Shown here one piece after another: positions 13,259-46,567 of a DNA stretch of 64,000 nucleotides (position 1 is the stretch's first letter; each line of letters starts with the position of its first letter). The translations under genes were made by a program, and so were the position numbers. The stretch is taken from positions 1 through 64,000 of the forward strand of contig JAJRQC010000069.1 of the NCBI GenBank assembly GCA_024280455.1, given 5' to 3'. Origin of the DNA: Deltaproteobacteria bacterium. GTDB lineage: Bacteria; Desulfobacterota; Desulfobulbia; Desulfobulbales; Desulfobulbaceae. A model generated the notes under the pieces. That model had not been told where the DNA came from. It searched no databases and saw only the letters and a list, made by a program, of their open reading frames with translations.

Positions 13259-13981
13259 TCAGGCAACGAGCTTTTTCAGCCAGTCAATCCATGCACTGAA
13301 ACCGTCACCGGTTGTTGCCGACAGGTGCATGATCTCAAGCTCCGGTTGAATGCGTCCTGCCTCCTTGTCCGCCTCATCCAGCGAAAAATCAAAATAGTCC
13401 AGCAGGTCGGTTTTGGTGATAACAAAGAGATCCGCCCCCCGAAAAGTGGTTGGGTACTTGGCCGGTTTATCTGAACCCTCCGGTACCGAGACCAGGATCA
13501 CACGTTTATGTTCGCCCAGATAAAAGGTGGCCGGGCAGACCAGATTGCCGACGTTTTCAATAAAAATCAGGTCGTATTTTTTTCCTTCGGCAGTCTCCTG
13601 CTTGCTGTTTGCCTGATCTTCCAGCGCGTGCAGTCCCTTGTGGACCAGGGGTGCGTCAAGATGACAGGCACCGCCGGTTGTCAGCTGGACGGCGGCAACG
13701 CCCTTGGCCCGAATCCGGTCTGCATCCCGTTCCGTTTCAATATCTCCTTCAACAACCCCTATCCGCAATTCGCTGCCAAGGGCGTCAATGGTATGTTCCA
13801 GCAGGGTTGTTTTGCCTGCTCCCGGGCTTGATATCAGGTTGATCGCCACTGCGCCCATACGTTCTATATGGGTTCTGTTGGCGTCGCCCTGGCGGTCATT
13901 GGCCTCCAGCAGGCTTTGGTTAACCTCGACAAGCCGTTTATTCGAGGTGCCTGTCAGTTGACAGCCGCAGACATCACACAT
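13259..13981 (-). CDS. hypB: Hydrogenase nickel incorporation GTPase HypB
   Basis: 240 residues. Delivers nickel to the hydrogenase large subunit with HypA, using GTP. The N-terminal high-affinity Ni motif MCDVCGC is present but no His-rich stretch. The P-loop is NLISSPGAGKTTLLE; the second metal/switch region is GGACHLDAPLVH, followed by IFIENVGNLVCPA and the guanine-specificity ITKTDL. Last gene of the cluster, three bases after hypA. The family-A element follows. Confidence 0.97.
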   Translation of the reverse strand: MCDVCGCQLTGTSNKRLVEVNQSLLEANDRQGDANRTHIERMGAVAINLISSPGAGKTTLLEHTIDALGSELRIGVVEGDIETERDADRIRAKGVAAVQLTTGGACHLDAPLVHKGLHALEDQANSKQETAEGKKYDLIFIENVGNLVCPATFYLGEHKRVILVSVPEGSDKPAKYPTTFRGADLFVITKTDLLDYFDFSLDEADKEAGRIQPELEIMHLSATTGDGFSAWIDWLKKLVA

Positions 13982-13984
13982 GAG

Positions 13985-14359
13985 TTACTCCATTTCAAGC
14001 TGTTTGAGGATGAGTTCGTCTCCACCTTTTGCCGTACAGTGTGCACCTCCGCAATCCGGGCATGGCAGGGTCGAAGAAAAAGGCCTTGGTTTCTGTACCT
14101 GACCGGCTGGACTGGTAAAACAATTTCCGCATTGCAGGCAGGTATATTCCGGAGGTGGTGTTTCAAGAACCAGAACGGATTCTTTTGTCGGATTCTGTTC
14201 CTGTTTTAATGCATCAAAACCAAAGGAAAAGGAGTCGGTTACAATCCCGGAAAAGGGGCCAACGATGACCGTTACCTTTGTTATTTTTTCTGCTTGATGT
14301 TTGTCGGCAAGAGCCAGTAACTGGTCAATCAGGCCCTGGGCCAGGGACAGCTCATGCAT
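13985..14359 (-). CDS. hypA: Hydrogenase maturation nickel metallochaperone HypA
   Basis: 124 residues. MHELSLAQGLIDQLL carries the N-terminal Ni-binding His2-Glu3 pair. The zinc site has knuckles CLQCG and CPDCG, the second followed by GAHCTAKGGDELILK. Works with HypB to insert nickel. Overlaps the upstream protease gene by eight bases, so the two are translated together. Confidence 0.96.
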   Translation of the reverse strand: MHELSLAQGLIDQLLALADKHQAEKITKVTVIVGPFSGIVTDSFSFGFDALKQEQNPTKESVLVLETPPPEYTCLQCGNCFTSPAGQVQKPRPFSSTLPCPDCGGAHCTAKGGDELILKQLEME

Positions 14360-14837
14360 GGTCGATCATGTATCCTGCCCGGCCCAGCCTGCCTACGATT
14401 TCCACGCCGATTTCAGCAACCCGTTGTTGCAGGGTATCGGTGAGCTCCAGCCCCAGTGCAATATTCTCCGGGACTGCGCAGAGACAATCAACGGTTTCCG
14501 GTTCGTTGCCCCGCAGCTTGCAGATAGCTATAATTTCAAGAATACCCAGCTGATGAGGCGACATGGAGGTCTGGATATTTGTACCGGAGATGTCGTTGTC
14601 ATCGAGATATTCAAGCGTTCCCGGAGGATTATCGGATTTGATAACATCCACTACCATGACCCAGTCCGAATCCTCCAGAAGAGGGCCAAGGTAAATGCCT
14701 GCGGTCCCTGCATCGTGCAACTGCACATTGTCCGGGAAGGTATAGGTCTCTTCAAGGTGTCTGATTACGTGGACCCCGAAGCCTTCGTCACCCATCAACA
14801 GGTTGCCGATACCAAGAATGGCTACATCTTTAGTCAT
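14352..14837 (-). CDS. Hydrogenase maturation endopeptidase (HyaD/HynC type)
   Basis: 161 residues. Removes the C-terminal peptide from the hydrogenase large subunit once nickel is in place. Seen: GIGNLLMGDEGFGVHVI with the nickel-sensing acidic residue, VQLHDAGTAGIYL, VVDVIKSDNPPG and the conserved MSPHQLGI His. Lies between cytochrome b and hypA in the same operon. It may also have to serve MvhA, because the protease gene near mvh-hdr is truncated (35220-35381). Confidence 0.95.
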   Translation of the reverse strand: MTKDVAILGIGNLLMGDEGFGVHVIRHLEETYTFPDNVQLHDAGTAGIYLGPLLEDSDWVMVVDVIKSDNPPGTLEYLDDNDISGTNIQTSMSPHQLGILEIIAICKLRGNEPETVDCLCAVPENIALGLELTDTLQQRVAEIGVEIVGRLGRAGYMIDHA

Positions 14838-15784: not shown

Positions 15785-17485
15785 TCAGACAACCTTTATT
15801 CTGGTTAACTCCGTGCCCTCAGGATCAAGCATATGGACCGCGCAGGCGATACAGGGATCAAAGGAGTGCACCGTTCGCAGAACCTCAAGCGGTTGTTCCG
15901 GTTCAGCCATGGGGTTACCTACCAGGGAGGCCTCGTATGGGCCGGGCACGTCTTTGTCATCACGGGGCCCCGCGTTCCAGGTCGAGGGAACAACGCACTG
16001 GTAGTTTTTAATCACTCCGTCTTTGATGACGATCCAGTGGGAGAGGGCGCCCCGCGGCGCTTCATGAAAACCAAACCCCTGCTGGGTTCCCTTGGGAAAG
16101 GTCGGCTTGTTGAAGATTTCATAATCACCGGAGCCGATATTGTCCACCAGCAGCTACCAGTGCTTGATGGACAGATCAGCCAGCATCGAGGCCCTGATGG
16201 CACGGGCCAGATGTCTGCCCGGGGGTGAGTGCAGTGCTTCCGGTCCGACCTGGGCCCCGGCCAGTGAACTGACCCTGGACAGGGTATCGTTGACATATTT
16301 TGTTGTCAACTCGTGCCCCTGGGCATAGCCGACCAGAACCTGGGCCAATGGCCCGACCTGCATGGGTTGTCCCTGAAAGCGCGGAGCTTTCATCCAGGAG
16401 TATTTGCCGTCGTCCTGGAACTCGGTATACTTTGGAACCGTATCCTCTTCATAGGGATGCCTGGTCCAGTCACCGTCGTACCAGGAACGGGCGATGCATT
16501 CGACTACGTTGTCACGAAAGTAGCTGTCATTAAAGCTGGTGATGCCCTTGACCGTCCCCAGGTCGCCGCCCATGATGGTGCCGCCGGGCAGATCAAATTT
16601 GGTTCCTTTTGTATCCAGCACCATGTCCGGTACGGCCAGATAATTGGTCACCCCTTTGCCGTATTGGAGCCAGTCCTTGTACAGGGCGCCGATGGCGATG
16701 ACATCGGGAAGGTAGACCTGCTGGATGAAACCGCGCACCTCTTCGGCCAGCTGCTTGACCCAGTAGAGCCGTTCTATGTTGAGGGTTGTTTCGTTGTCCG
16801 GGTTGATAGCTGCCGTAACCCCGCCCACCGACATGTTTTGTACATGCGGGTTCTTGCCGGAGATGATGGCAATGGCCTGATCCGCCTTGCGCTGGTAATC
16901 CAGGGCTTCGAGATAATGGGAAACCGCCATCAGGTTGGCCTCGGGCGGCAGGATCATGGCCGGGTGTCCCCAGTAGCCGTTGGCAAAGGGCCCCAGCTGT
17001 CCGGAGTCAACTATAGATTGTACTTTGGACTGAACTTTTCTAAAGCGGTTTGCCGAGTTGCCCGGCCAGTTGGAAAGGGTTTCGGAGAGTTGAACGGTTT
17101 TGCCGATATCGGCCTGCAGGGCTGATACGACGTCTACCCAGTCCAGGGCGGAGAGGATATAGAAATGAACAATATGGTCATGGAGTGCGTGCAGCGACAT
17201 GACCAGATTGCGGATATACTGGGCGTTCATGGGGATTTCCAGGCCCAGGGCATTTTCCACCGTCCGCACTGAGGCCAGAGCATGCACCGTGGTGCAGACC
17301 CCACAGATGCGCTGGACGAAATGCCAGGCATCGCGGGGGTCACGGCCCTGGAGAATAACTTCAATTCCGCGCCACATCTGACCTGATGACCAGGCCTTGC
17401 TGATTACTCCGTTCTCTACTTCCGCATCTATTCTCAGGTGGCCTTCAATCCGGGTAATAGGATCAACCACTATTCGTTGTGCCAT
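15785..17485 (-). CDS. [NiFe] hydrogenase large subunit, interrupted by in-frame TAG
   Basis: About 566 codons. The catalytic subunit of the membrane-attached periplasmic uptake hydrogenase. Seen: start MAQRIVVDPITRIEGHLRI, N-terminal Ni-ligand motif RICGVCTTVHA, and C-terminal DPCIACAVHML with the second Cys pair and the His after which the peptide is cut. An amber codon at 16154-16156 splits the frame after LADLSIKHW; the same frame resumes with LLVDNIGSGDYEIF, which normally is continuous in this family. Only one base change separates TAG from CAG or AAG. Either a point mutation, a sequence error or readthrough; as written the enzyme would lose its C-terminal nickel ligands. Paired with the Tat-exported small subunit upstream. 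Confidence 0.93.
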
Positions 17486-18981: not shown

Positions 18982-20013
18982 TCAACATATCCGTGGCAGC
19001 GGCTCTCCGGAAAGCGGCTCAATGAGCCGGGTTCCGCCAATGGACGTCGTCAGACTGACCCTTCCAGCAGGGCCGTCTACAACCCGGCCGATACAGGCAG
19101 CCTGTTTTCCGGCCTCGGTTGATCGCATGCAGGCCAGGAGGTCGGTTGCGGCATTTTCGTCACAGATAAGAATGCATTTGCCTTCATTGGCCAGGTAGAG
19201 CGGATCAAGACCGATCAGCTCGCAGGCGGCGCCGACCACCGGTCGGACGGGAATATCCGGCTCGGAGAGATTGATGCTGATGCCTGAGGCCTGGGCAATC
19301 TCACAGAGTGTTGTTGCCAGTCCTCCCCTAGTCGGATCACGGAGAACATGCACTGCAGCACTGTTTTCAGCCAGCAGTGCCTGCACCAGATGATGCAGGG
19401 CCATTGTGTCGCTGTGCAGATCACCGGAAACCTGCAGGCCGGCCCGGTTGGTCATGATGGTAATACCGTGGTCGGCCAGGGTTCCGGAGAGGATAATTGC
19501 ATCACCGGGCCGGGCATTTTTACCCGATATGTTGATATGCTCATCAACCCGTCCGATACCGGTGGTGTTGATAAAGAGTTTATCGGCCTTGCCCCTGGGG
19601 ACGACCTTGGTATCACCGGTAATAATGTCGACCCCGGCCTTGGTACAGCAGTCGGCTATGGAGGCGATAATGATTTCAAGCTTTGCCAGCTCAAATCCTT
19701 CTTCAATGATCAGGCCAAGGCTCAGACCCAGGGGTACGGCACCGCGCATGGCCAGATCGTTGATCGTCCCGTTGACGGCAAGCTCCCCGATATTGCCGCC
19801 TGGAAAGATGATCGGGTCAACCACATAGGAATCCGTTGACATGGCCAGCCGACTTTTTTGTTTTTGGGCCGGAAGGATGGCACAGTCCTCCAGGTCATGC
19901 AGAAGTGGATTATCAAGATATTTAAGAAAGAGGTCACTGATCAGGTTCTGGCTGGCCAGTCCGCCGCTCCCGTGATCCAGGGTGATTTTTTCAGCTTTTT
20001 TTATCTGTGTCAT
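18982..20013 (-). CDS. hypE: Hydrogenase maturation protein HypE (carbamoyl dehydratase)
   Basis: 343 residues. Dehydrates the thiocarbamate carried on its C-terminal Cys to thiocyanate, which becomes the cyanide ligand of the active-site iron. The C-terminal PRIC motif is intact. The N-terminal LDHGSGGLASQNLI and the ATP-binding PurM-like segments (AMSTDSYVVDPIIFPGGNIG, RDPTRGGLATTLCEIA) are clear. Lies 35 bases after hypD in the same direction; 195 bases separate it from the hydrogenase small subunit. Confidence 0.97.
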   Translation of the reverse strand: MTQIKKAEKITLDHGSGGLASQNLISDLFLKYLDNPLLHDLEDCAILPAQKQKSRLAMSTDSYVVDPIIFPGGNIGELAVNGTINDLAMRGAVPLGLSLGLIIEEGFELAKLEIIIASIADCCTKAGVDIITGDTKVVPRGKADKLFINTTGIGRVDEHINISGKNARPGDAIILSGTLADHGITIMTNRAGLQVSGDLHSDTMALHHLVQALLAENSAAVHVLRDPTRGGLATTLCEIAQASGISINLSEPDIPVRPVVGAACELIGLDPLYLANEGKCILICDENAATDLLACMRSTEAGKQAACIGRVVDGPAGRVSLTTSIGGTRLIEPLSGEPLPRIC

Positions 20014-20048
20014 TAATGGATTTTCCTGTTGATTCTGATCGGTTATTT

Positions 20049-21137
20049 TTATTTATGGCCGCTGAATCGATAATAGGCGGCACAGGTTCCCTCTGAAGAC
20101 ACCATGCAGGGGCCGATGGGTTGCATGGGAGTGCAGGTTCTGCCGTAGAGTGGACAGTCAGGCGGCAGCAGGTGGCCCTGCAGAATCTCACCACATTTAC
20201 AGCCTTTGGGTTCCGGAACCGGTTTCAGATCAAGCTGGAGTTTGTTGACCGCGTCAAACTGTTCAAATTCCTTGCGAAGGCCAAGACCGCTGCCTGAAAT
20301 CAGGCCCAGTCCCCGCCACAGGGTATCTTCCCGGACAAAGACGGTTTCCATCAGTTCTCGGGCCCTGCTGTTGCCCGCAGCGGTGACAACCCGGGTGTAA
20401 CAGTTCTCGACCTTGGCCCGACCTTCGAGCACCTGTCTGCTCAGGCTGACCAGGCCGGCAGCGATATCGGCCGGTTCAAATCCCGCCACTGCACAGGACA
20501 GGTGGTATTTCTCCGCCAGTGGCCTGTAGGCATCTGCTCCGATAATCGCACTGACGTGGCCGGGGCAGAGCAGGCCGTCGACATTGAGTTGGGGATCAGA
20601 CATCAGGGCAACCAGTGGCGGCGGCATGACCTTGCAGCCGGCAAAAATACAAAAGTTTTCTATTCCCAGGCGCCGGGCTTCAAGAATGGTGGCGGCTATG
20701 GTCGGGGCCGTGGTCTCAAAACCGACCGCCGGGAAGAAGACGATTTTGTCCGGATATTTGCGGGCCAGGGTGAGCGCATCCATGGGCGAGTACACCACCT
20801 CAACCGTTGCACCTTCCGATCGGGCCTCGGCCAGTGAACCGTCACTGCCGGGAACCCGGATCAGGTCACCGAAGGTGGCGACCAGGACATCTTTTTTGCG
20901 GGCGGCCTGGACAAAGGCATCCACATGCCCGGCCGGGGTGACACAGACCGGACAGCCGGGGCCGGAAATGAGTTCCAGCTGTTTAGGTACCAGGGAACGA
21001 AGCCCATGCCTGAAGATCGAGACGGTATGGGTCCCGCAAACCTCCATGATTCTGAGCGGCCGGTCAACGATCATGAAGAGCTCTTCCAGTAGGGCATCGG
21101 TGATGGCCCTGTCACGGAATTCCCGGGCGCATTTCAT
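20049..21137 (-). CDS. hypD: Hydrogenase maturation iron-sulfur protein HypD
   Basis: 362 residues. Scaffold on which the Fe(CN)2CO unit is built together with HypC and HypE. Conserved motifs: RIMEVCGTHTVSIFRHGL, GPGCPVCVTP, FFPAVGFETTAPT, and a C-terminal [4Fe-4S] cysteine set (GCKCGEIL, CPLYGRTCTPMQPIGPC). Start overlaps the hypC stop by four bases (ATGA), so translation is coupled. Confidence 0.97.
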   Translation of the reverse strand: MKCAREFRDRAITDALLEELFMIVDRPLRIMEVCGTHTVSIFRHGLRSLVPKQLELISGPGCPVCVTPAGHVDAFVQAARKKDVLVATFGDLIRVPGSDGSLAEARSEGATVEVVYSPMDALTLARKYPDKIVFFPAVGFETTAPTIAATILEARRLGIENFCIFAGCKVMPPPLVALMSDPQLNVDGLLCPGHVSAIIGADAYRPLAEKYHLSCAVAGFEPADIAAGLVSLSRQVLEGRAKVENCYTRVVTAAGNSRARELMETVFVREDTLWRGLGLISGSGLGLRKEFEQFDAVNKLQLDLKPVPEPKGCKCGEILQGHLLPPDCPLYGRTCTPMQPIGPCMVSSEGTCAAYYRFSGHK

Positions 21138-21403
21138 GGCATCTCCTCTCCATTCGGCGGCAGGGATGCGGCCATTTCACGCATCAGCTGCAGATTGGTC
21201 AATGCCTCTTCTTCAGTCAGGGTATGGATGGCAAAACCGGCATGGACAATGACATAGTCTCCAATATCGGGAATCCTGTCGGCCAGGTCAAGGCGGACTT
21301 CTTTCTCCATTCCGTCGGCATCGACCACGGCAATCTGTGGGTCGGCAAGATCACCAAAAATGGTTTTTAATTCCTTTACCTGCATGGGGATGGCAAGACA
21401 CAT
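21134..21403 (-). CDS. hypC: Hydrogenase assembly chaperone HypC
   Basis: 89 residues. Begins MCLAIPMQV, with the essential Cys2 that carries the iron-ligand unit and binds the large-subunit precursor; IGDYVIVHAGFAIHTLTEEEA is the family core. First gene of the hypCDE-hydrogenase series; upstream of it lies a family-B repeat rather than another gene. Confidence 0.96.
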   Translation of the reverse strand: MCLAIPMQVKELKTIFGDLADPQIAVVDADGMEKEVRLDLADRIPDIGDYVIVHAGFAIHTLTEEEALTNLQLMREMAASLPPNGEEMP

Positions 21404-25155: not shown

Positions 25156-27447
25156 CTATCCCTGCATTGCAGCATAGGCCTGACCCAGGGCAATGCCTCC
25201 ATCGCCGGCAGGAACCTGTTCGCCGCTGAATACGGAAAAACCAATGTCAATGCACCCGGTTGTGATCCCCTCAAGCAAAATTTTGTTCTGGAATGAACCC
25301 CCTGCCAGGACAACAGTGTCAAGACCTGTCTGTTGCCGTAGTTGCCGCAAAATTTCAATGGAACCGTCCTGCAGCCATTGGTGAAAGCCATAGGCAATTA
25401 CAGGAATGGCCACATTCTGTTGCAGATCTTCAACAATCTGCCGGATAAGGGGGCGTGAGTCAAGAATAAGTACCCCTTCTTTATCTTTCAGGGCAGGATT
25501 GTAGCGATTTGTCCTCTGGGCAACCCCTGCCATTGCCGCCTGATGTTCCAGCTGCATTGCCGCCTGACCCTCATAGTCGGCGATCAGGCAGAGGCCAAGC
25601 AGACCTGCCACTGCGTCAAAGAGTCGGCCGCAGCTGGAAGTGAGTGGACAGTTGATCTTTTGAGTAATCATTTGAGTGATAACTGCGCGTTTGCCGGTAT
25701 CAATTTGTAACAGGGCTTCGGGCAGGCGCTGCAGCTCAAGCGCGTTTGTTCCCGCGGCCATGTAAAGCATGGCCATGGCCATGCGCCAGGGTTCTCCGGC
25801 TGCGACATCTCCACCGGGCAGCGGCAGCAGTGAAAGATGTGCAAGTCTGGTGTAGCCCCGGCGATCTGCGAGGTACCATTCTCCGCCGTATACGGTTCCA
25901 TCATCACTGTAGCCGGTTCCGTCAAAAATCACTGCCAATACGGGTCCATCAAGTCCATGTTCGGCCATGACCGCTGCCCCGTGGGCATGGTGATGCTGAA
26001 CCTGTTTACAGGGCTGGGGCAGTTTTTCACAAAATCTGGTGCTCAGGTAATCGGGGTGCAGGTCGCAGGTTACTGCCTGAAAATCGGTTTCCAGGATGTT
26101 TTGGAAATGGGTGATGCTCTCGGTATAGAAGTCTAGAGCCAGGGGGCTGGTCAGCTCGCCGATATGCTGGCTGATAAAGGCTTCATTGTTGCGGACAATA
26201 CAAAAGGAGTTCTTCATCTCCGCCCCACAGCCGAGAACATTTTTTGTCTGGTGGGCAAGCAGCAGCGGCTCCGGGGTGTAGCCGCGGGCGCGTCGCAGCA
26301 TTCGGGCTTTTTTCGCCATTACCCGGACAACCGAATCATCCACTCGGGTAACAATCTCCCGATTATGCAGGAGAAAGTGATCGGCAAGACCATGAAGCCG
26401 GGCCAGGGCCTCGTCGTTGCCGGTACAGATGGGTTCCCCACTCAGGTTGCCGCTGGTCATGACCAGGGCGTGGGGGCAGTTGTGATCTGCAAGAAGCAGA
26501 TGATGCAGCGGCGTATAGGGCAGCATCAGGCCGAGAATACCGATGCCGGGAGCAAGATTTTCCGCCAGGATTGTGTTGTTTCGTTTTTCCACAAGGACAA
26601 TGGGGGCCCGGTGCGAGGAAAGCAGCTCTTCCTCCTGCTCTGAAATCAGGCAGTATTCTCGAGCCTGCTCAAGATCCCGAACCATGATTGCCAGGGGTTT
26701 CTCCCGCCTGTGTTTGCGCTCCCGCAAAGTAGCCACCGCTGAAATACTGGTGGCATCAACCGCCAGATGAAATCCGCCCAGCCCTTTGATGGCGACGATT
26801 TTTCCACGGGCCAGAGCCTCGGCACAGGCAGCAATGCAGTCGTTGGCTGTAATGGATTCTCCATCTTCGTCATGCCAGCTCAGGCTTGGCCCGCAGGTCG
26901 GGCAGGCATTGGGCTGGGCATGAAAGCGCCGGTTAAGAGGATCATGGTATTCCCGCTCACATTGCGGGCAGAGTGTAAAAACATCCATTGAGGTGTTGGG
27001 CCGGTCATAGGGAATAGTTTTAATGATCGAAAATCTGGGCCCGCAGTTGGTACAGTTGATAAAGGGATAACGGTGGCGGCGATCGCGGCGATCAAAGAGT
27101 TCCCGGATGCAGTCCGAACAGAGGCCAATATCCGGAGATATCTGGGTATTTGCCTGCTCTGCCTGCAGGCTTGGCAGGATGATGAATTCCGATCGCTGCT
27201 TCTGTACGGAGATTTCCTTTATGGTGATACTGGTGATTCGGCTGACCGGTGGTGGTTCGTTCTCGAGTCTGCTGCAGAATGTGGCAATGGCCTTTTTTGT
27301 GCCCTGTAATTCGATAAAAACACCGTTGCTGGAGTTGGCAACAGAACCTTTCAGCTGCATTTTCCCGGCAAGACGATAGACAAAGGGCCGAAAGCCGACC
27401 CCCTGGACAATGCCCTGGACACTTATTTGAATTGCCTGCTGGTGCAT
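25156..27447 (-). CDS. hypF: Carbamoyltransferase HypF
   Basis: 763 residues, full length. Transfers the carbamoyl group from carbamoyl phosphate to the HypE thiol, the source of the cyanide ligands. Domain order: acylphosphatase (1-90; VQGIVQGVGFRPFVYRLA), two zinc fingers (CSDCIRE...CTNCGPRF and CPQCERE...CPTCGPSL, about 107-180), a YrdC-like domain (200-385; GGFHLAVDATS, VMTSGNLSGEPI) and a Kae1-like domain (410-763; HHHAHGAAVMAEHG, VIFDGTGYSDDGTVYGGE, VLAGGSFQNKIL). It closes the mvh-hdr operon, nine bases after a small zinc-ribbon gene, and supplies the only hyp function absent from the other hydrogenase cluster. Confidence 0.97.
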   Translation of the reverse strand: MHQQAIQISVQGIVQGVGFRPFVYRLAGKMQLKGSVANSSNGVFIELQGTKKAIATFCSRLENEPPPVSRITSITIKEISVQKQRSEFIILPSLQAEQANTQISPDIGLCSDCIRELFDRRDRRHRYPFINCTNCGPRFSIIKTIPYDRPNTSMDVFTLCPQCEREYHDPLNRRFHAQPNACPTCGPSLSWHDEDGESITANDCIAACAEALARGKIVAIKGLGGFHLAVDATSISAVATLRERKHRREKPLAIMVRDLEQAREYCLISEQEEELLSSHRAPIVLVEKRNNTILAENLAPGIGILGLMLPYTPLHHLLLADHNCPHALVMTSGNLSGEPICTGNDEALARLHGLADHFLLHNREIVTRVDDSVVRVMAKKARMLRRARGYTPEPLLLAHQTKNVLGCGAEMKNSFCIVRNNEAFISQHIGELTSPLALDFYTESITHFQNILETDFQAVTCDLHPDYLSTRFCEKLPQPCKQVQHHHAHGAAVMAEHGLDGPVLAVIFDGTGYSDDGTVYGGEWYLADRRGYTRLAHLSLLPLPGGDVAAGEPWRMAMAMLYMAAGTNALELQRLPEALLQIDTGKRAVITQMITQKINCPLTSSCGRLFDAVAGLLGLCLIADYEGQAAMQLEHQAAMAGVAQRTNRYNPALKDKEGVLILDSRPLIRQIVEDLQQNVAIPVIAYGFHQWLQDGSIEILRQLRQQTGLDTVVLAGGSFQNKILLEGITTGCIDIGFSVFSGEQVPAGDGGIALGQAYAAMQG

Positions 27448-27456
27448 GAATACTGT

Positions 27457-27702
27457 TTACTCCTCCTGGGCCAGAGCTTCGCGGAGGAGTTGTTGATAGC
27501 GGGCTGTTTCTATAACCTTTTTCTGTTCCATATCCTCGGCCTCTTCCCTGTTTAAGTGAATCAGGCCGCAGGCGGGGCAGGAAAGGTTGACTTCATCGCC
27601 GACCGCCCGAGCTTTCAACTCCTCTGCGGTCATGTGACCGACATAGCCGCAGGCACAGGCCGGGCACTGGCCGCGAACAACAGTTTTTAATTTTTTATTC
27701 AT
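27457..27702 (-). CDS. Small zinc-ribbon-like protein between mvhA and hypF
   Basis: 81 residues, unknown function. Two Cys knuckles (GQCPACACGYVGHM and LSCPACGLIHLN) suggest one zinc ribbon; the C-terminal half is charged and helical (EDMEQKKVIETARYQQLL). Starts six bases after the mvhA stop and ends ten before hypF, so it is almost certainly co-expressed with them. Position suggests an accessory role in hydrogenase maturation, but this is inference from context. Confidence 0.8.
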   Translation of the reverse strand: MNKKLKTVVRGQCPACACGYVGHMTAEELKARAVGDEVNLSCPACGLIHLNREEAEDMEQKKVIETARYQQLLREALAQEE

Positions 27703-27708
27703 AGCCTT

Positions 27709-29151
27709 TCACTTCCCGTTGCAGATGAGTTCGCCCTGGCTGTTTCTGATCTCGATGATAAGGTCGGAACCGCCGTCCAGGCGGTGGGTCGCACACGACA
27801 TTCACGGATCATAGGCCCGAACCGCCATCTCTATCCGGTTGAGAATACCCTCGTCATAATGCCCGTTTTTAATAAGATCGGTTGCCGCCTGCCGGACGCT
27901 CATATTCATGGGCGCAAGATTATGGGTGGTGCCTACAATCATGTTGGCACTGGTAATACAACCGTTTTCGTCGGTGGTATATTCATGGATAAGCGTTCCC
28001 CGGGGGGCCTCAACATGACCTACTCCCCGGCCGGCACCCGGTTGAACGTTGTGTCTGATCATGTCTCCGGTAATACGATCGTCTGCCAGCAGCTCAAGGC
28101 TACGTTCACAGGTATAAACGAGTTCGATAAGCCGGGCCCAGTGATAGAGCAGGGTACCCTGGGCCGGTCGGCCGAAAAGGTCACGGAATTCTTCCAGGGC
28201 CTCCTGGGCGATCGGGGTTGAAATATGATCGCAGATATTGATTCGAGCCAGAGTATTTGTCCGGTAAATACCCCTGGGCCGGTCAAGATCCATGGAGAAG
28301 CCCTCCTGCCAGCTGTCGGCCCAGGGCATTTTGCCATAGCTCCAGTTCTCCACATGTTCTTTGATGTGCTCTTTATACTGTTCAGGTGCAAAATCGGTGA
28401 AGGAGCCGTCCGCCTTCATCAGGCGCAGGTCGCCGTCATAGAGTCGCATGGCGCCGTTTGTATCCACCGTGCCGAGAAATCCTGTTTCAATTCTGCCCAG
28501 GGTCTGCAGAATATTCTGATATTTATTCAAGACCTCGTCCCGTCCATAGGTCAGGGCAAAAACAGCAAACTCGAGCAGGGTTCGGCAGCCCTGCTGCAAC
28601 CGTTGTCGCTCTTCTTTAGTCATCGGCTTGGAAAAACCGCCACTGACCCCGGCAACAGGATGGATTGCACGGCCGGCGAATTCTTCCAGCAGTTGCTGGC
28701 CGAGTTTCCGCATCGCGGCAACTCGGTTGGCCAGTTCGGGATCGGCCCTGACAATACCCATGATCGAGCGCACCGAATAATCGGCATCAGGGCCCAGAAT
28801 AAAGTCAGGCGCGGCCAGAAAAAAGAAGTGCAGTATTTTGTCATTGATATGGGCCATGACCTGGCAGAGTTCGCGTAAGAGCGCTCCTGTCGGCGGTGGC
28901 TTGACGCCGAAACACGCATCAACAGCCTTGACCGAGGCCAGATGATGCATCCACGGACAGATGCCGCAGATCCTGGTGACGATTCTTGGAATCTCTTCTG
29001 CCGGCCGCCCGCAGATGAACTGTTCAAAGCCGCGCAGAGAGAGAATATGCAGGCGGGAGTCGGCCACGTTGCCCGCTTCATCCAGGTCGATGGAGATGCG
29101 GGCATGACCCTCTATCCTGGTCAGGGGTTCTATGGAAATGGTAGTATTCAT
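27709..29151 (-). CDS. mvhA: Selenocysteine-containing MvhA-type hydrogenase large subunit ([NiFeSe])
   Basis: 480 residues if the UGA at 27802-27804 is read as selenocysteine (residue 450). N-terminal TISIEPLTRIEGHARISI; first Ni-ligand pair in RICGICPWMHH. At the C-terminus the canonical DPCxxCxxH reads DP-UGA-MSCATH, so the nickel-ligand Cys is replaced by Sec, followed by 22 residues (RLDGGSDLII...) to a TGA at 27709-27711 that the protease would remove after the His. Start ATG overlaps the mvhG stop by ATGA. A plain reading would stop at the UGA and lose the active site. Cytoplasmic (no Tat partner). It belongs with MvhG, MvhD and HdrA in an electron-bifurcating complex by family knowledge. 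Confidence 0.93.
27769..27785 (-). promoter_or_regulatory. Possible bacterial SECIS hairpin of mvhA
   Basis: Right behind the UGA, the transcript has arms accgcc/ggcggt with a five-base tggac loop, starting about 17 bases after the UGA. Distance and shape suit a SelB-recognised SECIS within the coding region. Confidence 0.6.
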
Positions 29152-30077
29152 GAGGCCCTCTTTTTCTCTTTGAGCGGACGCAGGCGGCCATGGGCACCGG
29201 AAAACCTGAGCATGGATTTCCGGTCGATTATTGTCTTGAAGTCGATGCCCTGGCTGACAAGTCCGTTCAACATTCCAAGCATCTGGTTGTCCTGGTGGCG
29301 AACCGGGCCATAACAGCCCCGGCAGGGGACCCTGGCCCTGATGCAGGCAGGTTCGCCTTGGTGGCCGCATCCGCCGGCCGTGACCGGTCCCATGCAGAGA
29401 AATCCCTGTTCAAGCAGGCACTGCATGGAGGCGGTTGATTCATTGCTGTCAAATCGGGCATTGGCGGTAAATCTGAGCAGTTTCCGCTCAGATTTACCGG
29501 TTCTCCTGGTCGGACAGGTGTCGCAGACGCTTTTTGTCACCGGTTCTGGTGTCAGGCCATCAAGAAAATCTTCAAGTACCCTGGCAATTATGGTTGGGTC
29601 GGGCGGGCAGCCGGGAAGGAAAATATCCACATCCGTCTTTTCGTCCAGACTGTAGACCCGGTCAAGCATGGGGGGGGTATCCTGGTTCGGTACATCTACA
29701 GGCTCAGTGGTCACTGTGGAAAAAACCGTTTGCAGGGCATCTGCCATGGGCCACTCATTTATCATTGCCGGGATACCGCCGTGGGTGCCACAGGTGCCGA
29801 GTGCCACCAGGGTTGTGCAGCTTTTGCGCATGGCCTCCAGAACCTGAAGCTGATGCGTGTTGGCAACTCCACCTGAGACCAGACCGATCTCGGCCTTGGG
29901 GATCGAAATTTCAGTTTCGGAACCGGCCGGATCGGAATATTTATGATCCATGAGCAGGGGCAGGTGGACCAGCTGCAGCCGGTTGAGCAGGGGGATGAGC
30001 GCCTCCCCGATGTTGAGCAGGCTGATCTCGCAGCCGGAACAGCTGTGCAGAGATTCAGCAGCCAGACGGATATTCAT
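29148..30077 (-). CDS. mvhG: MvhG-type hydrogenase small subunit
   Basis: 309 residues without a Tat signal, so cytoplasmic. Relays electrons between the Ni-Fe(Se) site and MvhD through iron-sulfur clusters. Proximal cluster ligands: SLHSCSGCEISLLN, ALGTCGTHGG and LPGCPPDPT. Further Cys groups (VCDTCPTRRTG; CLLEQGFLCMGPVTAGGCG; CIRARVPCRGCYGP) supply two more clusters, as in MvhG/F420-reducing-type small subunits. Overlaps both mvhD (upstream) and mvhA (downstream) by four bases. Confidence 0.94.
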   Translation of the reverse strand: MNIRLAAESLHSCSGCEISLLNIGEALIPLLNRLQLVHLPLLMDHKYSDPAGSETEISIPKAEIGLVSGGVANTHQLQVLEAMRKSCTTLVALGTCGTHGGIPAMINEWPMADALQTVFSTVTTEPVDVPNQDTPPMLDRVYSLDEKTDVDIFLPGCPPDPTIIARVLEDFLDGLTPEPVTKSVCDTCPTRRTGKSERKLLRFTANARFDSNESTASMQCLLEQGFLCMGPVTAGGCGHQGEPACIRARVPCRGCYGPVRHQDNQMLGMLNGLVSQGIDFKTIIDRKSMLRFSGAHGRLRPLKEKKRAS

Positions 30078-30508
30078 GGAGTGTCACCGTTATCCTGATT
30101 ACTGTTTGGGTTCGGCCCGAGTTCCAGGACTCTTTTGTGCATGGTGCCGACGGTGCGGGCAAACTGTTCCGATTCACTCGACGAGAGCCGGGTAATGAGA
30201 AACCGGTCATTCTCAAAGCCAAAATCTTCAAGCAGTTCGTCGATGAGTTCCGCCCGGGCCATGGCCTTTTCATTGCCGTCGATATAATGGCATTCGCCGA
30301 GCTGGCAGCCGATAATCATCACCCCGTCCGCTCCTTTGTTCAAGGCATGGAGAACCATTTCCGGATGAACCATGCCCGAACACATGACCCGGATGATCCG
30401 CAGGCTGTCCGGATACTGGATACGCTGGATACCGGCAAGATCCGCTGCCGCATAACCACACCAGTTACAGCAGAAGGCGATTATTTTTGGTTTATGTTCA
30501 GGTCGCAT
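30074..30508 (-). CDS. mvhD: MvhD-type electron-transfer subunit
   Basis: 144 residues. Small [2Fe-2S] protein that connects the hydrogenase to HdrA. Cys motifs: IIAFCCNWCGYAAADLAG, VMCSGMVHPEMV and IIGCQLGECHY. In some methanogen homologues one of these positions is selenocysteine; here all are ordinary Cys codons. Twelve bases after hdrA and overlapping mvhG by four. Confidence 0.95.
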   Translation of the reverse strand: MRPEHKPKIIAFCCNWCGYAAADLAGIQRIQYPDSLRIIRVMCSGMVHPEMVLHALNKGADGVMIIGCQLGECHYIDGNEKAMARAELIDELLEDFGFENDRFLITRLSSSESEQFARTVGTMHKRVLELGPNPNSNQDNGDTP

Positions 30509-30520
30509 GAGCTTTGTTTT

Positions 30521-33500
30521 CTAATTAAGGGCTGCCTCGATTTTGGCTGTCAGCTGTTCGTAGGTGAAATCGACTACGTTTATGGCCCGTTTGGGACAGG
30601 TTCCCTGGCAGATACCGCAGCCTGTACAGCGCATGGTGTCCACGGCGACAAGCTTATGCTGCTCCCCGTCGGCGTCAATCGTTTCAAGAGGTGTGATGGC
30701 CTGGTACGGACAGACATCGATACACAGGGCGCAGCCGTCACAGTGTTTGTCGTCGACCACGGCCTTGACCGCATCAAGGCAGATCTCCTTTTGCGAGAGC
30801 AGGGTAGCGGCCCGGGCGGAGGCGGCCAGGGCCTGCGAGATCGATTCTTCTATGGGCTTTGGTGCATGGGCGAGTCCGGCAACAAACAGACCGTCGGTGG
30901 GCAGGTCGACCGGCCGTAGTTTTGGGTGCGCTTCCTGAAAAAAACCATCCTCGTCAATGTTGACCCTAAAGAGTGAAGCCAGCCTGCCGGCATCTGGGTT
31001 AGGCAGGATGCCCGAGGCCAGAATGATCATGTCGGCCATGATGTGCAGAGGCCTGTGCAGGATATGATCCCAGACCTCCACCGTGATCTGCTCGTCATGG
31101 GACTTGACTTTGGGCTTGCCGAACTGTTCATAGTTAATAAAAATCACTCCGAGCTCAAGAGCTCTGTTGTACAGGCTCTCGCGCAGGCCATAGGTCCGCA
31201 TTTCGCGGAAAAGGATATACACCTGTCGGTTTGGATCCTCTTTTTTAAGTTCAATGGCGCTCTGTACGGAATGGGTGCAGCAGACCCGGGAGCAGTAGTT
31301 ATGTGTTTCATCCCGTGAACCGACACACTGGATAAAGACAAAGGACGATCCCCGGCTGACCCGGATATCATTATAAATATGGAGGGCATCGAATTCCACC
31401 GCCGCCACCACGCCGGGAATCTTTCCGTACCCGTATTCGTCCGGCAGTGAACGCTTGCCGCCCACGGCTATGATTCCTGCTCCATGAGTGATAATCCGCC
31501 GGTGTTCTTTGTGGTCACGGATGGTTGTATGGAAGTTGCCCGCATGACCTCCGGCATCAAGAACGGTCGCGCAAAAGTGCACCGTGATCCCGGGATGGTC
31601 AAGTACCTGTGCCTGTAACTTTTTAATATAGGGCGGTACATGCTCACCATTCCAGGTCCGGTGGAGGTTGAGGCCGTTGCCGCCCAGGCGGTCGGTTTTT
31701 TCAACCAGATCGACGGGGAATCCCTGGTCGGCAAGATTGATGGCGGCCGTCATCCCCGTGACGCCGCCGCCTACCACAAGGGCTGTCTGTTTGACCGCAG
31801 CAGTGTTTGCCGTCACCGGTCGCTTAAGCATAACGGCGGCCACAGCCATTTTGATAAGATCCACGGCCTTGTCCGTTGCCGCGTCGGGGTCAAGGGCATG
31901 GACCCAGGAATCATGGTTTCTGATGTTTGCCATTTCCAGCAGATATTCGTTCAGTCCGGCTTCACGGATGGTTCGTCGAAACAGCGCTTCATGTGTTTTT
32001 GGTGAACAGGCGGCAATAACGATTCGATTCAGGCCCAGTGAACGGACAAGATCAATGATCAGCTCTCTGGTATCCTGAGAGCAACCGAAGAGAACCTCTT
32101 CCACGTGGCTGACCGATTTCAGGACGCTGATTTGTTTACGAACGGTTTCAAGGTTTATGGTTTCGCTGATATTGTTGCCGCAGTGGCAGAGGAAAACGCC
32201 TGTTTTTACGGCGGCGGCCGGGGGCTGTGCCGGGGGGAGACGGAGTTTCCTGGTCTTTGTATCTCGCCTGGACATGAGCAGGCTTGCAGCCGCAGCTGCG
32301 GCTGCCGACCCCTGCTCTATGGATAGAGAGATATTTTTTGGTCCGGAAAAGGCTCCGCAGATATAGATGCCTTTTTTCGAGGAGAGCACGGGCTGGAACG
32401 AGGAGGTGGAGGCAAAATGCTCGGGTCCGAGGTGGATGCCGGCAAGGCTGGCAAGTTGTATTGTCGGTTCCTGGATTTCAAGACCAACGGAAAGCACGAT
32501 AAGGTCAAAGGTCTCCTCAAGCTGCCTGCCCTGTTCATTGATGGTTCGTACTCTGAGGGCACCGTCCTTGCCTGCCGGTTCAATGCCGTGGGGCCGACAG
32601 CGGGTGAAGCGTATTTGTTTATCAGAGGCCCGTTGAAAATAACGGTCAAAGCCCTTGCCGTGGGTTCTCATGTCCGAATAAAAAACAGTGACCTCCAGTT
32701 CACAGTCGTTGTCCCTGGCAATCATAGCCTCCTTGATGGCTGTCATGCAGCAGACCGAGGAGCAGTACCCGTGTCCACAGGGATGTGGATCCCGGCTGCC
32801 GATGCACTGGATGAAAGCCAGCTGTTTTACCGGCCGGTTATCGGATGGCCTCAGCAGCCTGCCACTGGTCGGGCCGCAGGAGGAGAGCAACCGTTCCATC
32901 TCGGGGGAGGTTATCACGTTATCCAGAACCCCGTACCCCCAGCTCCCTTTCCCCTGCGGGTTGTAGGGAGAAAAGCCGGGTGCCATGATAATGGCGCCGA
33001 CCCGAATTGTATTCTCTTGCGCCGACATCAAGAAGTCGACCGCGTCTGCCGGGCAGGCATCACTGCACCTGCTGCAGTGGCCGGTCCCATTGAGGTGGAG
33101 GCAGAGGTCGGAGTCGATGCAATAGGTGAGCGGCACAGCCTGGGCATAGGCAATATGAATGGCCCTGCGGTCGGACAGCCGTCTGTTATGTTCATCAGGC
33201 GTTGCCACCGGGCAGGCACTGGAACATTTACCGCAGGCAATGCAGCGGTCATCGTGGACATACCTGGGCAATCGGTTGATCCGAACCGTGAAGTTTCCCT
33301 CGGAGCCTGAAATGTCAGTGACTTCGGAAAGCGTCAGGAGGTTGATGTTTAAGTGCCGACCGCACTCGACCAGTTTGGGTGCAACCGTTCACATCGAGCA
33401 GTCATTGGCAGGATAGGTCCGGGCCAGCCAGGCCATGGAGCCGCCGATAGCACTGTTTTTTTCCAGCAGATGAACAAAAAAGCCGGACTCGGCCAGGTCA

Positions 33501-33577
33501 AGGGCCGCTTGAATTCCGGCAATACCTCCACCGATAACCAGCACGGAGCCTGTTTTTTTTCTTTTGCCTGTGGTCAT
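30521..33577 (-). CDS. hdrA: Selenocysteine-containing double-module HdrA
   Basis: 1018 residues if the UGA at 33389-33391 is Sec (residue 63). Module 1: FAD fingerprint SVLVIGGGIAGIQAALDLAE (about 11-30), the Sec motif NDCSM-U-TVAPKLVECG, then ferredoxin-type Cys sets (CIACGKCSSACP; CSRCSDACP) and CGHGYCSSVCCM. Module 2 (from about 350): HdrA N-terminal domain (GVFLCHCGNNISETI, VIAACSPKTHE), a second FAD fold (LVVGGGVTGMTAAINLADQG), CVGSRDETHNYCSRVCC, and two C-terminal [4Fe-4S] motifs (CDGCALCIDVCP, CTGCGICQGTCP). HdrA holds the bifurcating flavin; longer than the usual 650 residues because FAD modules are duplicated. Without Sec decoding only a 62-residue stub would be made. First gene after a 134-base repeat. 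Confidence 0.93.
33360..33378 (-). promoter_or_regulatory. Possible bacterial SECIS hairpin of hdrA
   Basis: From 11 bases after the UGA: cc aa act-ggtcg-agt gc gg, a short stem with a GGUC-type apical loop as in E. coli fdhF SECIS. The stem is short, so the call rests partly on position. Confidence 0.5.
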
Positions 33578-33755: not shown

Positions 33756-34994
33756 TCAGGGCTGCTTTTCTGCCGGTAGCAGTGCCTCACTGACCAGCTG
33801 CCAGGGAAATCTGACCTTGATGTCCAGCTCGAACTCACGGTTGAGGACGGCCTGCAGCTGGTCCCGGCAGGTGGGGCAGGATGTGACCACAACCCGGGCT
33901 CCGGTTTCCCGGATTTGCCGGGCCTTTATCCTGCCGTGAAAGATACGCTCTGCCTCAAAGGGCGTGGCCATCGTTCCGCCGCCGGCACCGCAGCAGTAGC
34001 TGTCCCGCCTGTTAGGCGTCATCTCGATAAAGTTGGGGCAGCAGGTTCTGGTTATTTTTCGGGCCTGTTCAGCGGAATTCCCGGCCGGGGTTACCCAGTC
34101 GTTGCGGCTGTAATGGCAGGGGTCATGGTAGGTGGTACGTTCGTAACAGAGCCCCTTGTTTATACGGATACGTTTTGTGTCGATATATTCGGTCAACAGG
34201 TCGAGCGCGGTGTAAATGGTGTACTGTTTCAGGGCCTCGGGGAACCATCTCTGCAATCCGGTAATGGTGGCATGGGCGGCATGACCGCATTCCGGCAGGA
34301 GCAGGGCCTGACAGCTCAAGCGCTCCAGATTGTCGACAATTCGTCCAACCATGGTTCTGGCGGCATCGTCATCGCCGGAAAAAAAACCCCAGTTGACTGC
34401 TTCCCAGTTATCAGCCGGGATGGTCCAGGATTCACCGGCGGCATAAAAAATACGCCACCACCACTGCAGATTTTCGGGCTCAACAAAAGGTATTTTTGAG
34501 TTTACCGTAATCAGGAGCCTGGATCCCCGTACATCGATTGGAACGGAAGAGTCGGGTCCGGTGCATTTCTTTGTTTCCTCCTGGAGCTCGTGCAGTACCT
34601 GCAGGAAATCATCCTTGGGAATGCCGATGTTGTTGCCCTGTTCCAGGCAGGTGGTCCCCCCAAGCTGGATTGAGCCTGGAACAAGGGCCCTCTTTCGGGT
34701 CGAGCGCAGGGTACGGATGAGCTCAACGATCTCGACTCCGACCGGGCATGCCTGCTCGCAACGGCCACACAGGGTGCACTTCCAGGGCCAGTCCAGGGAG
34801 AGGAGTTCCTTCTCCATTTTAAGGGTGGCCATGCGTATCAGTTTCCGGGGGTCCATGGAGTCAATTCCACTGATAGGGCAGGCACCGGCACAGGAACCGC
34901 AGCCCATACAGATGTCGGCAAGGGCAGGGTTTGTATACAGGGGGTGACTTGAGGTCTGCAGTGTGAAGGCGGGGGGAGAGGATCCGGCGGTCAT
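33756..34994 (-). CDS. HdrC-HdrB-like fused iron-sulfur oxidoreductase
   Basis: 412 residues. N-terminal third holds two [4Fe-4S] motifs (CMGCGSCAGACP, about 29-40; CTLCGRCEQACP, about 73-84), matching HdrC. The rest holds two CCG-type domains: PECGHAAHATITGL with HDPCHYSR, then CCPNF, SYCCGAGGGTMA and TSCPTCRDQL, matching HdrB/HdrD. CCG domains bind a non-cubane cluster that reduces disulfides. With HdrA it would complete the Hdr half of the complex; the physiological acceptor (for example a DsrC-type trisulfide or a small disulfide) is not shown by the sequence. Overlaps the HTH gene upstream by four bases. Confidence 0.88.
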   Translation of the reverse strand: MTAGSSPPAFTLQTSSHPLYTNPALADICMGCGSCAGACPISGIDSMDPRKLIRMATLKMEKELLSLDWPWKCTLCGRCEQACPVGVEIVELIRTLRSTRKRALVPGSIQLGGTTCLEQGNNIGIPKDDFLQVLHELQEETKKCTGPDSSVPIDVRGSRLLITVNSKIPFVEPENLQWWWRIFYAAGESWTIPADNWEAVNWGFFSGDDDAARTMVGRIVDNLERLSCQALLLPECGHAAHATITGLQRWFPEALKQYTIYTALDLLTEYIDTKRIRINKGLCYERTTYHDPCHYSRNDWVTPAGNSAEQARKITRTCCPNFIEMTPNRRDSYCCGAGGGTMATPFEAERIFHGRIKARQIRETGARVVVTSCPTCRDQLQAVLNREFELDIKVRFPWQLVSEALLPAEKQP

Positions 34995-44014: not shown

Positions 44015-46567
44015 ATGATTGGAAAGGCCCTGACCAAGGTTTTTGGTAGTAAAAATGATCGAACAATTAAACAGCTGCGACAGAATATTGTCCGGATTAA
44101 CGATCTGGAACCATCTATAGAACCACTCACTGACCAGGAGCTTGCCGCCAAAACAAATGAATTTCGCGAGCGGATTGCCCAGGGAGAGTCTCTTGATGCC
44201 CTGTTACCCGAGGCTTTTGCCGTTGTCCGAGAGGCTGCCCGGCGTGTACTTGGTGAACGCCATTACGATGTACAGCTTATCGGTGGCCTCGTATTACATC
44301 AGGGGATGATCGCGGAGATGAAAACCGGTGAGGGTAAAACCCTGATGTCGACGGCCCCGGTGTACCTGAACGCCCTGTCCGGTAAAGGCGTGCATGTGGT
44401 CACGGTTAACGATTACCTGGCCAGTCGCGATATGGAATGGATGGGTCAGATCTACCGCTTTCTCGGGTTGAGGACAGGTTCCATCGTCCATGATATGGAT
44501 GATGACGCCCGCAGGGAAGCCTATGCCGCAGATGTCACTTACGGAACCAATAACGAGTTCGGTTTTGATTACCTGCGCGACAATATGAAGTTTACCCTGG
44601 AAGATTTTTGTCAGCGCGGATTCAACTATGCCATTGTCGATGAGGTTGACTCCATCCTGATTGATGAGGCCCGGACGCCGCTGATTATTTCAGGTCCGGC
44701 TGATATGTCCACGGATATGTATATTAAGGTGGATCGGATCATGAAACATTTCAAGGAGGATGAGCATTACACCAAGGAGGAAAAGGATCGTCAGGCCATG
44801 CTCACCGATGAAGGCGTGATTCTTGGCGAGAAACTCCTTGAAGTTGATAATCTCTATGATCCCAGAAATATCAATCAACTCCATCACATTAACCAGGCCT
44901 TGAAGGCCCATGTCCTGTTTCAGCGTGATGTGGATTATATTGTCAAGAACGGTCAGGTGGTCATTGTTGATGAATTTACCGGCCGGACTATGGAAGGGCG
45001 CCGCTATTCGGACGGTTTACATCAGGCTTTGGAGGCCAAGGAAGGGGTCAAGGTCGAGAAGGAAAACCAGACCCTGGCCTCCATCACTTTCCAGAATTAT
45101 TTCCGTATGTATGACAAACTGGCCGGTATGACGGGAACGGCGGACACCGAGGCCCCGGAATTTAAGAAGATCTATGACCTTGATGTGGTGGTGATCCCCA
45201 CCCATCAGGAGATGATCCGGATTGATTATCCCGACGTCATCTACAAGAACGAAAAGGCCAAGTACCGTAATATCGTCCGTGAAATAAAAGAGCTCAACGA
45301 AAAGGGCCAGCCCATCCTGGTCGGTACGATTTCCATTGATGTTTCCGAAAAGATCGCCAAGATGCTTGCCAAGGAAAAAGTGCCCCACGAGGTCCTTAAT
45401 GCAAAGCAGCATGAGCGGGAGGCTGAGATTGTTGCCGATGCCGGCCAGAAGGGCAAGGTGACCATTGCCACCAATATGGCTGGACGCGGTACGGATATCA
45501 AGCTCGGCGAGGGCGTTCGCGAGCTTGGCGGACTGCATATTCTCGGGACCAGTCGTCATGAGAGCCGCCGGATTGATAACCAGCTGCGCGGTCGATCAGG
45601 CCGTCAGGGTGATCCCGGTTCGTCCCGGTTTTTTCTCTCCCTTGAAGATGATCTCCTCCGGATTTTCGGATCCGGCCGTATCTCCGGGATTATGGACAAA
45701 CTCGGCATGGAAGAAGATGAGCCCATTTAACACTCGATGATCTCCAAAGCGATTGAAAATGCCCAGCGCAAAGTCGAGGGCCACCATTTTGATATTCGTA
45801 AGCATTTGCTTGAGTATGACGACGTCATGAACAAGCAGCGCGAGGTTATTTACAGCCAGCGGCGTGAGGTTCTCCAGGGAGAGGATATTAAACCGATTAT
45901 TGATGATATGAAAGCTGATCTCATCCAGAATGTGATCGCTGAAACTGCGGTGGAAAAGACCCCGTCCGAAGATTGGGAGTGGGAAGCCTTTAACGAGCGG
46001 GTGAGTGAACTGTTTAACCTGCAGCCGGCTTGGAATAAAACCGAGCGGACCGATCTTGATCATGACAGCCTTCTTGAAAAACTGACGGCCGAAATTGAGG
46101 CCAAATATCAGCGTCAGGAAGAGCAGAACGGCCCTGAACAGATGCGCCAGCTGGAACGGATGATTCTCCTGCAGATGGTGGACACCCTGTGGAAGGAACA
46201 TCTGCTCAATATGGATCACTTGAAAGAGGGAATAGGCCTCCGCGGCTATGGTCAGAAGAACCCCCTTGATGAATATAAGAAGGAGGGCTTCAATCTGTTT
46301 ATGACTATGATCGAAACAGTGAAGCAGCAGACCGTCAGTACCCTGTTCAGAGTCCAGATTATGCAGGATGATGAGCTGGAGAAATTGGAAGAAGAACGTC
46401 GTCAGGAGCGGGAGCGGGAACTGCAGATGGCCCGGCGCGCCTCTGGTGACAAAGCGGATGCTGAACGGAAACCGGTCAAGCGCAGTGAAGAAAAAATCGG
46501 CAGAAATGCTCCCTGCCCCTGTGGTTCCGGTAAAAAGTATAAAAAGTGCTGCGGCAAACTTGCGTAA
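44015..46567 (+). CDS. secA: Preprotein translocase ATPase SecA, interrupted by in-frame TAA
   Basis: About 850 codons, the normal length. Motor of the Sec pathway. Walker [19 protein letters not shown]-type [20 protein letters not shown], motif [29 protein letters not shown] and [20 protein letters not shown] are all clear; the C-terminal zinc motif [13 protein letters not shown] is intact. A TAA at 45728-45730 breaks the frame between GMEEDEPI and [15 protein letters not shown]. In the family the next residue is usually Glu, so GAA to TAA is a single-base change. Translation could restart at ATG 45737. SecA is essential, so sequence error, readthrough or a functional split should be tested before calling it a pseudogene. 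Confidence 0.93.

Follow-up and report, generated by a model that had tools for sequence, protein, structure and literature searches.

The mvhA gene described here, from a sulfate-reducer-type bacterium of the Desulfobulbaceae (GenBank assembly GCA_024280455.1), is predicted to encode the large subunit of a group 3c-like cytoplasmic [NiFeSe] hydrogenase, in which UGA450 would be decoded as selenocysteine (Sec) by SelB and tRNA-Sec under the direction of a downstream hairpin, and which belongs to a divergent second copy of its operon. We put the probability of this reading, which was reached by sequence comparison, at about 95%. The window, i.e. the whole stretch of DNA analysed, comprises 64,000 nucleotides of contig JAJRQC010000069.1, and the features discussed below are collected in Table 1.

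Gene, ligand motifs and operon

The first-pass annotation had described an MvhA-type protein with UGA at the first Cys of the C-terminal motif and a stop 31 codons further on, and translation confirmed this: the frame holds a single internal TGA at codon 450, in the context AYDP-U-MSCATH, and closes at a natural TGA stop at codon 481. A plain ORF caller cuts MvhA off at 27802, just as the annotation had anticipated for simple gene callers. The start at 29151 is consistent with the N-termini of relatives and overlaps the mvhG stop. Both ligand motifs of group 3c MvhA/VhuA proteins are present, RxCGxC intact as RICGICPWMHH and DP(C/U)xxCxxH as DPUMSCATH, so that with U450 read through all four metal ligands would be in place. 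The TGA falls exactly at the conserved nickel-ligand Cys, with conserved sequence on both sides, and Sec encoded at this position, where the C-terminal motif has its first Cys, is the sequence hallmark by which the product may be classed as a [NiFeSe] enzyme.

Comparison with Vhu and Mvh subunits placed the protein closest to VhuA/MvhA. It matches the Pfam family NiFeSe_Hases (PF00374, 3e-34); the top NCBIfam model is VhuA (463.6 bits against a model cut-off of 800), the VhuU model aligns with the Sec region, residues 433-469 (40.8 bits against a cut-off of 70), and the nearest solved chains in the PDB are VhuA (9sfi) and MvhA (9sw2, 5odc). The same strand carries, upstream of mvhA, the genes mvhG, mvhD and a tandem hdrA, which adjoin it as expected of group 3c, followed by a glpC-like gene; the five-gene order glpC-hdrA-mvhD-mvhG-mvhA is kept and all five ORFs are intact. 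A second in-frame TGA of the operon, in hdrA at 33391-33389, has no counterpart in the first-pass annotation of mvhA. Downstream of mvhA, hypF comes first; at a greater distance follow hypC, hypD and hypE, then a group 1 hydrogenase and a HycI protease, and finally hypA and hypB. Between mvhA and hypF, an 81-aa protein with CxxC pairs and no family match is encoded at 27457-27702 (-).

Table 1. Features of the mvhA operon and its surroundings in the window.
Feature	Position	Strand	Remarks
mvhA/vhuA-type [NiFeSe] hydrogenase large subunit (predicted)	27709..29151	-	480 aa with Sec450; PF00374, VhuA/VhuU profiles, PDB matches
Putative Sec450 codon, in-frame TGA	27802..27804	-	first Cys of DPCxxCxxH; aligns with the terminal Ni ligand
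Bacterial SECIS-like hairpin	27769..27785	-	stem (A)CCGCC/GGCGG(T), loop UGGAC; comparison and single-sequence fold
mvhG, hydrogenase small subunit	29148..30077	-	overlaps mvhA by 4 bp (ATGA)
mvhD (FlpD)	30074..30508	-	Cys68 where most relatives have Sec
hdrA, tandem (double) HdrA	30521..33577	-	Sec in CSMU motif
In-frame TGA, Sec of HdrA	33389..33391	-	NDCSM-U-TVAPKLVE; same site Sec in most relatives
Candidate SECIS after hdrA TGA	33351..33367	-	GAGUGC-GGUCG-GCACUU; single-sequence fold only, z -0.67
glpC-like Fe-S/CCG protein (HmcF/TmcB/DsrK-like)	33756..34994	-	Cys236 where relatives have Sec
hypF, [NiFe] cofactor maturation	25156..27447	-	
hypC, hypD, hypE, maturation genes	18982..21403	-	
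HycI-type maturation protease	14352-14837	-	
hypA	13985-14359	-	
hypB	13259-13981	-	

Conservation of the Sec codon

In-frame stops interrupt two further genes of the window. The secA gene at 44015-46567 (+) has an in-frame TAA at 45728-45730, after which the frame is open to its end; since secA is essential, a wrong base in the assembly is suspected. The large subunit gene of a HybC-like group 1 hydrogenase at 15785-17485 (-) has an in-frame TAG at codon 444 (16156-16154) and is open on either side. No PylS above the cut-off was found in the genome; pyrrolysine was therefore rejected at this codon, and the TAG is attributed to mutation or assembly error. With two such stops in the same window, the TGA in mvhA could not be trusted by itself, and it might likewise be a true stop, a nonsense mutation or an artefact of assembly, in a gene that is inactive or truncated. 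This was judged very improbable and rejected, because all close relatives keep the TGA: it stands at the same codon in the loci of other species (80 of 80) and in the second copy in the same genome, the codons downstream of it are conserved, and the hairpin that follows it covaries.

Specifically, U was found at MvhA codon 450 in 80/80 loci fetched from a collection of 84,980 species. A search of 258 genomes of the class showed exactly one in-frame TGA in every full-length match of at least 61% identity and, among the matches listed, none in those at 48% identity or less. In the phylum, Sec forms were traced to identities as low as about 56%, and the closest forms with Cys (in G495, G406, G553 and G261) are 56-62% identical to the window protein; the plasmid collection yielded distant relatives only. 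On the protein tree, built by a quick method with some long branches and no inferred root, the Sec450 label changes twice, against a mean of 17 changes for shuffled labels. A more remote MvhA, L138 of genome G432, is 42% identical to the window protein, sits on a very long branch and reads DPUISCATH with TGA; its Sec at the C-terminal site possibly had a separate origin.

The hairpin downstream of the UGA

The first-pass annotation had placed a stem-loop just after the UGA. A hairpin is indeed present 17-33 nt downstream, with its UGGAY loop starting 22 nt past the UGA, and compensatory changes occur at three of its pairs in 91 sequences, but the fold of the 42 nt after the TGA taken alone (-13.7 kcal/mol, z = -0.76) lies within chance. 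Because the lone hairpin is not unusually stable, the case for a SECIS rests on comparison: a single sequence says no more than chance, and the hairpin becomes convincing only through the 91 aligned relatives. In the 91 Sec sequences, 451 of the 455 cells for the five inner stem pairs (27784-27780/27774-27770) hold a base pair, compared with a mean of 435 and a maximum of 439 in 5000 shuffles, which ignore kinship.

Double changes in separate lineages are a stronger argument for the stem than this statistic. Pair 22/32 is G-C in 84, A-T in 6 and T-G in 1 (n=91); the protein tree places the change from G-C to A-T in three lineages (L150/152/155/156; L182; L209), the Arg-to-His change (CGC to CAC) being always paired with GGC to GGT in the opposite Gly codon. 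At pair 20/34, 82 sequences have C-G and 7 have T-A, the change from C-G to T-A falling in the Desulfatitalea/Desulfacinum group, and L143 has T-A at pair 21/33. Of 90 distinct sequences, all except one have the loop UGGAU or UGGAC, and the codon of Leu458 is CTG in 90/91, yet CTG makes up 42% of the Leu codons of the same genes. The mvhA-type stem was not found in the four nearest Cys sequences (56-62% identity), and an Rfam scan of the 64-kb window returned nothing above gathering scores. A hairpin that closely follows the UGA and has G in a small apical loop is the criterion for a bacterial SECIS element (PMC1088965), and the UGGAY loop is of this form. Given the 451/455 formed pair cells and the compensatory changes at three pairs, the interpretation of the mvhA hairpin as a bacterial SECIS element is well supported by comparison.

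Selenocysteine machinery and genome context

The first-pass annotation had tied its claim to a Sec pathway in the genome and to close relatives other than ones with Cys and no hairpin. The pathway is complete, and the close relatives all have TGA. The genome, 99.85% complete with 4.83% contamination, carries selA (635 bits), selB (372 bits), a tRNA-Sec gene (72 bits, also called as tRNA-SeC by ARAGORN) and selD at three loci (G000:C104:41338, C59:176 and C33:5715), two of them with one in-frame TGA each and one without. A contaminant origin of the contig was ruled out, because the genome has no argS besides the one in the window, which shares 93% identity with that of a same-genus genome.

The mvhA frame would be open under any code in which TGA is a sense codon, and a different genetic code, with UGA read as another amino acid such as Trp or Cys, was thus considered. 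It was rejected, since the stop of mvhA is itself TGA; moreover, TGA breaks long frames in the window operon only at known Sec sites, and tRNA-Sec, selA and selB are all in the genome, leaving such a code scarcely credible.

Two operons in one genome

A second glpC-hdrA-mvhD-mvhG-mvhA operon was found in the same genome on contig C20 (L055, 4357-11763), with TGA in four of its five genes and an MvhA about 70% identical to that of the window. At the four known Sec sites, in the order GlpC-HdrA-MvhD-MvhA, the C20 copy has Sec throughout and the window operon has Cys, Sec, Cys, Sec. Patterns were counted in operons with all four sites on the available piece. Sec at all four sites was the commonest (40 operons, C20 included), followed by Cys-Cys-Cys-Sec (6), Sec-Sec-Cys-Sec (4), Ser-Cys-Cys-Sec (2) and Ile-Sec-Cys-Sec (1). 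The Cys-Sec-Cys-Sec pattern of the window occurs in none of the 53 other fully scored operons, which is a small novelty. In the tree, the window MvhA groups with Desulfogranum mediterraneum and Desulfobulbus-type sequences, and the C20 MvhA with Candidatus Desulfobulbus rimicarensis and a Desulfocapsa MAG. The window operon is accordingly best read as a divergent second operon with a partial Sec set.

Sec might nevertheless be inserted in a copy that is now a decaying duplicate, its work being done by the four-selenoprotein operon on C20. The presence of that canonical operon in the same genome, the long branch of the window MvhA (0.43 on the protein tree), Cys in place of Sec at two of the four sites and the lack of a match to the window mvhA in five of seven same-genus genomes are all consistent with such decay, and, given the branch, some loss of constraint on the window MvhA is conceivable. 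However, the five ORFs of the window operon are intact with all ligand residues and the SECIS kept, maturation genes adjoin it, and its clade includes intact Desulfobulbus-type operons with the same Cys partners. Decay of the window copy is therefore considered unlikely, and a divergent second operon with intact genes remains the preferred reading.

Comparison with known systems and proposed mechanism

Sec-containing mvhA genes are already known from Desulfotalea and Syntrophobacter (2006) and from Desulfobacterium autotrophicum (2009), and MvhA/VhuA/VhuU are counted among known selenoproteins in a 2026 review (PMC13188914). The first-pass statement that [NiFeSe] enzymes of the cytoplasmic class occur in some Desulfobacterota thus agrees with the literature (PMC1794560, PMC2702500). 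Zhang et al. (2006) reported one Sec-containing FrhA, FrhD, HdrA and GlpC each in D. psychrophila (PMC1794560). The operon described there shares with the window the five-gene order and a Sec-containing MvhA and HdrA; the window differs in having Cys in glpC and mvhD, and a second, fully Sec operon (C20) alongside. In Desulfobacterium autotrophicum HRM2, the Sec hydrogenase MvhA2DG is clustered with a Sec HdrA1 (Strittmatter et al., 2009; PMC2702500). As judged by its description, this is likewise a cytoplasmic Sec hydrogenase beside a Sec HdrA in a sulfate reducer, but it clusters with the periplasmic HysAB, unlike the window operon.

Methanococcus Vhu (VhuA + VhuU), whose VhuA is the best NCBIfam and PDB match of the window MvhA, likewise carries Sec in place of the first Cys in the C-terminal motif. 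The Sec peptide of Vhu is, however, a separate small subunit, VhuU, whereas it is fused into MvhA in the window, and its SECIS lies in the 3' UTR, whereas the bacterial SECIS of the window would lie inside the coding region. The methanogen MvhAGD-HdrABC complex (PDB 5odc, MvhA 473 aa) has the group 3c architecture in common with the window enzyme, and has Cys where the window has Sec; separate HdrB/HdrC genes, as in that complex, are absent from the window operon. Periplasmic HysAB (PDB 5jsu, 1cc1) shares Sec as the terminal nickel ligand, but it is an exported group 1 enzyme whose similarity to the window MvhA is low (E about 1e-41).

In the proposed mechanism, SelB and tRNA-Sec would decode UGA450 as Sec, directed by the downstream hairpin, a step well supported by comparison. 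Selenium would thereby replace the first C-terminal Cys ligand of nickel, as suggested by the alignment, and the Hyp proteins and the HycI-type protease, whose genes are present, would complete the active site. By analogy with work on Mvh-Hdr, H2 would be cleaved at a Ni-Fe site in which Se is a nickel ligand, and electrons would pass from MvhG through MvhD to the HdrA flavin, which most likely divides them, following the Mvh-Hdr model, between ferredoxin and a disulfide-type acceptor reached through the GlpC/HdrD-like protein. Bifurcation of electrons from H2 was proposed for D. autotrophicum by Strittmatter et al. (PMC2702500).

Distant MvhA proteins and the significance of selenium at the metal site

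In distant MvhA proteins of four genomes (G284, G320, G653 and G443; loci L229, L230, L235 and L245), TGA takes the place of the second Cys codon (residue 65) in the N-terminal RxCGxC motif, which then reads TICGVU or RICGVU, and the C-terminal Cys motif is intact in the same proteins. G443 belongs to a different class from the other three, and both classes are other than that of the window; the G653 protein is 82% identical to that of G284 over the protein. The tRNA-Sec gene scores strongly (80-81 bits) in G284, G320 and G443, the three genomes searched, and hdrA also has a TGA in the operons of G284 and G443 (L139, L137). A Cys copy of MvhA is encoded as well in G284, G320 and G443, at 97.7% identity in G284. 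The hairpin following the N-terminal TGA, GGCC-loop-GGCC, is nearly letter-identical in G284, G320 and G653 and is altered in most Cys relatives at 66-84% identity. The evidence it provides for Sec65 is modest, because the 97.7%-identical TGT copy of G284 retains the same hairpin.

Other unusual MvhA forms were also observed: L133, L135 and L136, from genomes of family f52, and L134 are MvhA relatives that lack the C-terminal Cys ligands or the usual tail, L134 stopping right after DPCMSCATH. A separate VhuU-like peptide beside the MvhA forms without the C-terminal Cys was not found on the contig pieces examined.

Sec was found at the nickel site in every fully scored operon, that of the window included, whereas Cys is frequent at the GlpC, HdrA and MvhD sites; this contrast suggests that selenium is of particular benefit at nickel. 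An enzyme with selenium in its active site would here be cut short and lost by automated annotation. The MvhA family as a whole probably uses Sec at either of two metal ligands, Sec450 in the window clade or Sec65 in the four genomes. In standard enzymes the second Cys of RxCGxC bridges nickel and iron, and we take residue 65 to be this bridging ligand, corresponding by alignment to D. gigas Cys68. No report of Sec at the N-terminal hydrogenase motif was found among open-access papers, which is not proof of absence. The Sec65 lead, outside the window, may be more interesting than the window gene itself: if it is true, the enzyme would have selenium bridging Ni and Fe, and, if confirmed, the Sec65 forms would be a natural test of the role of selenium at another ligand position of this metal site.
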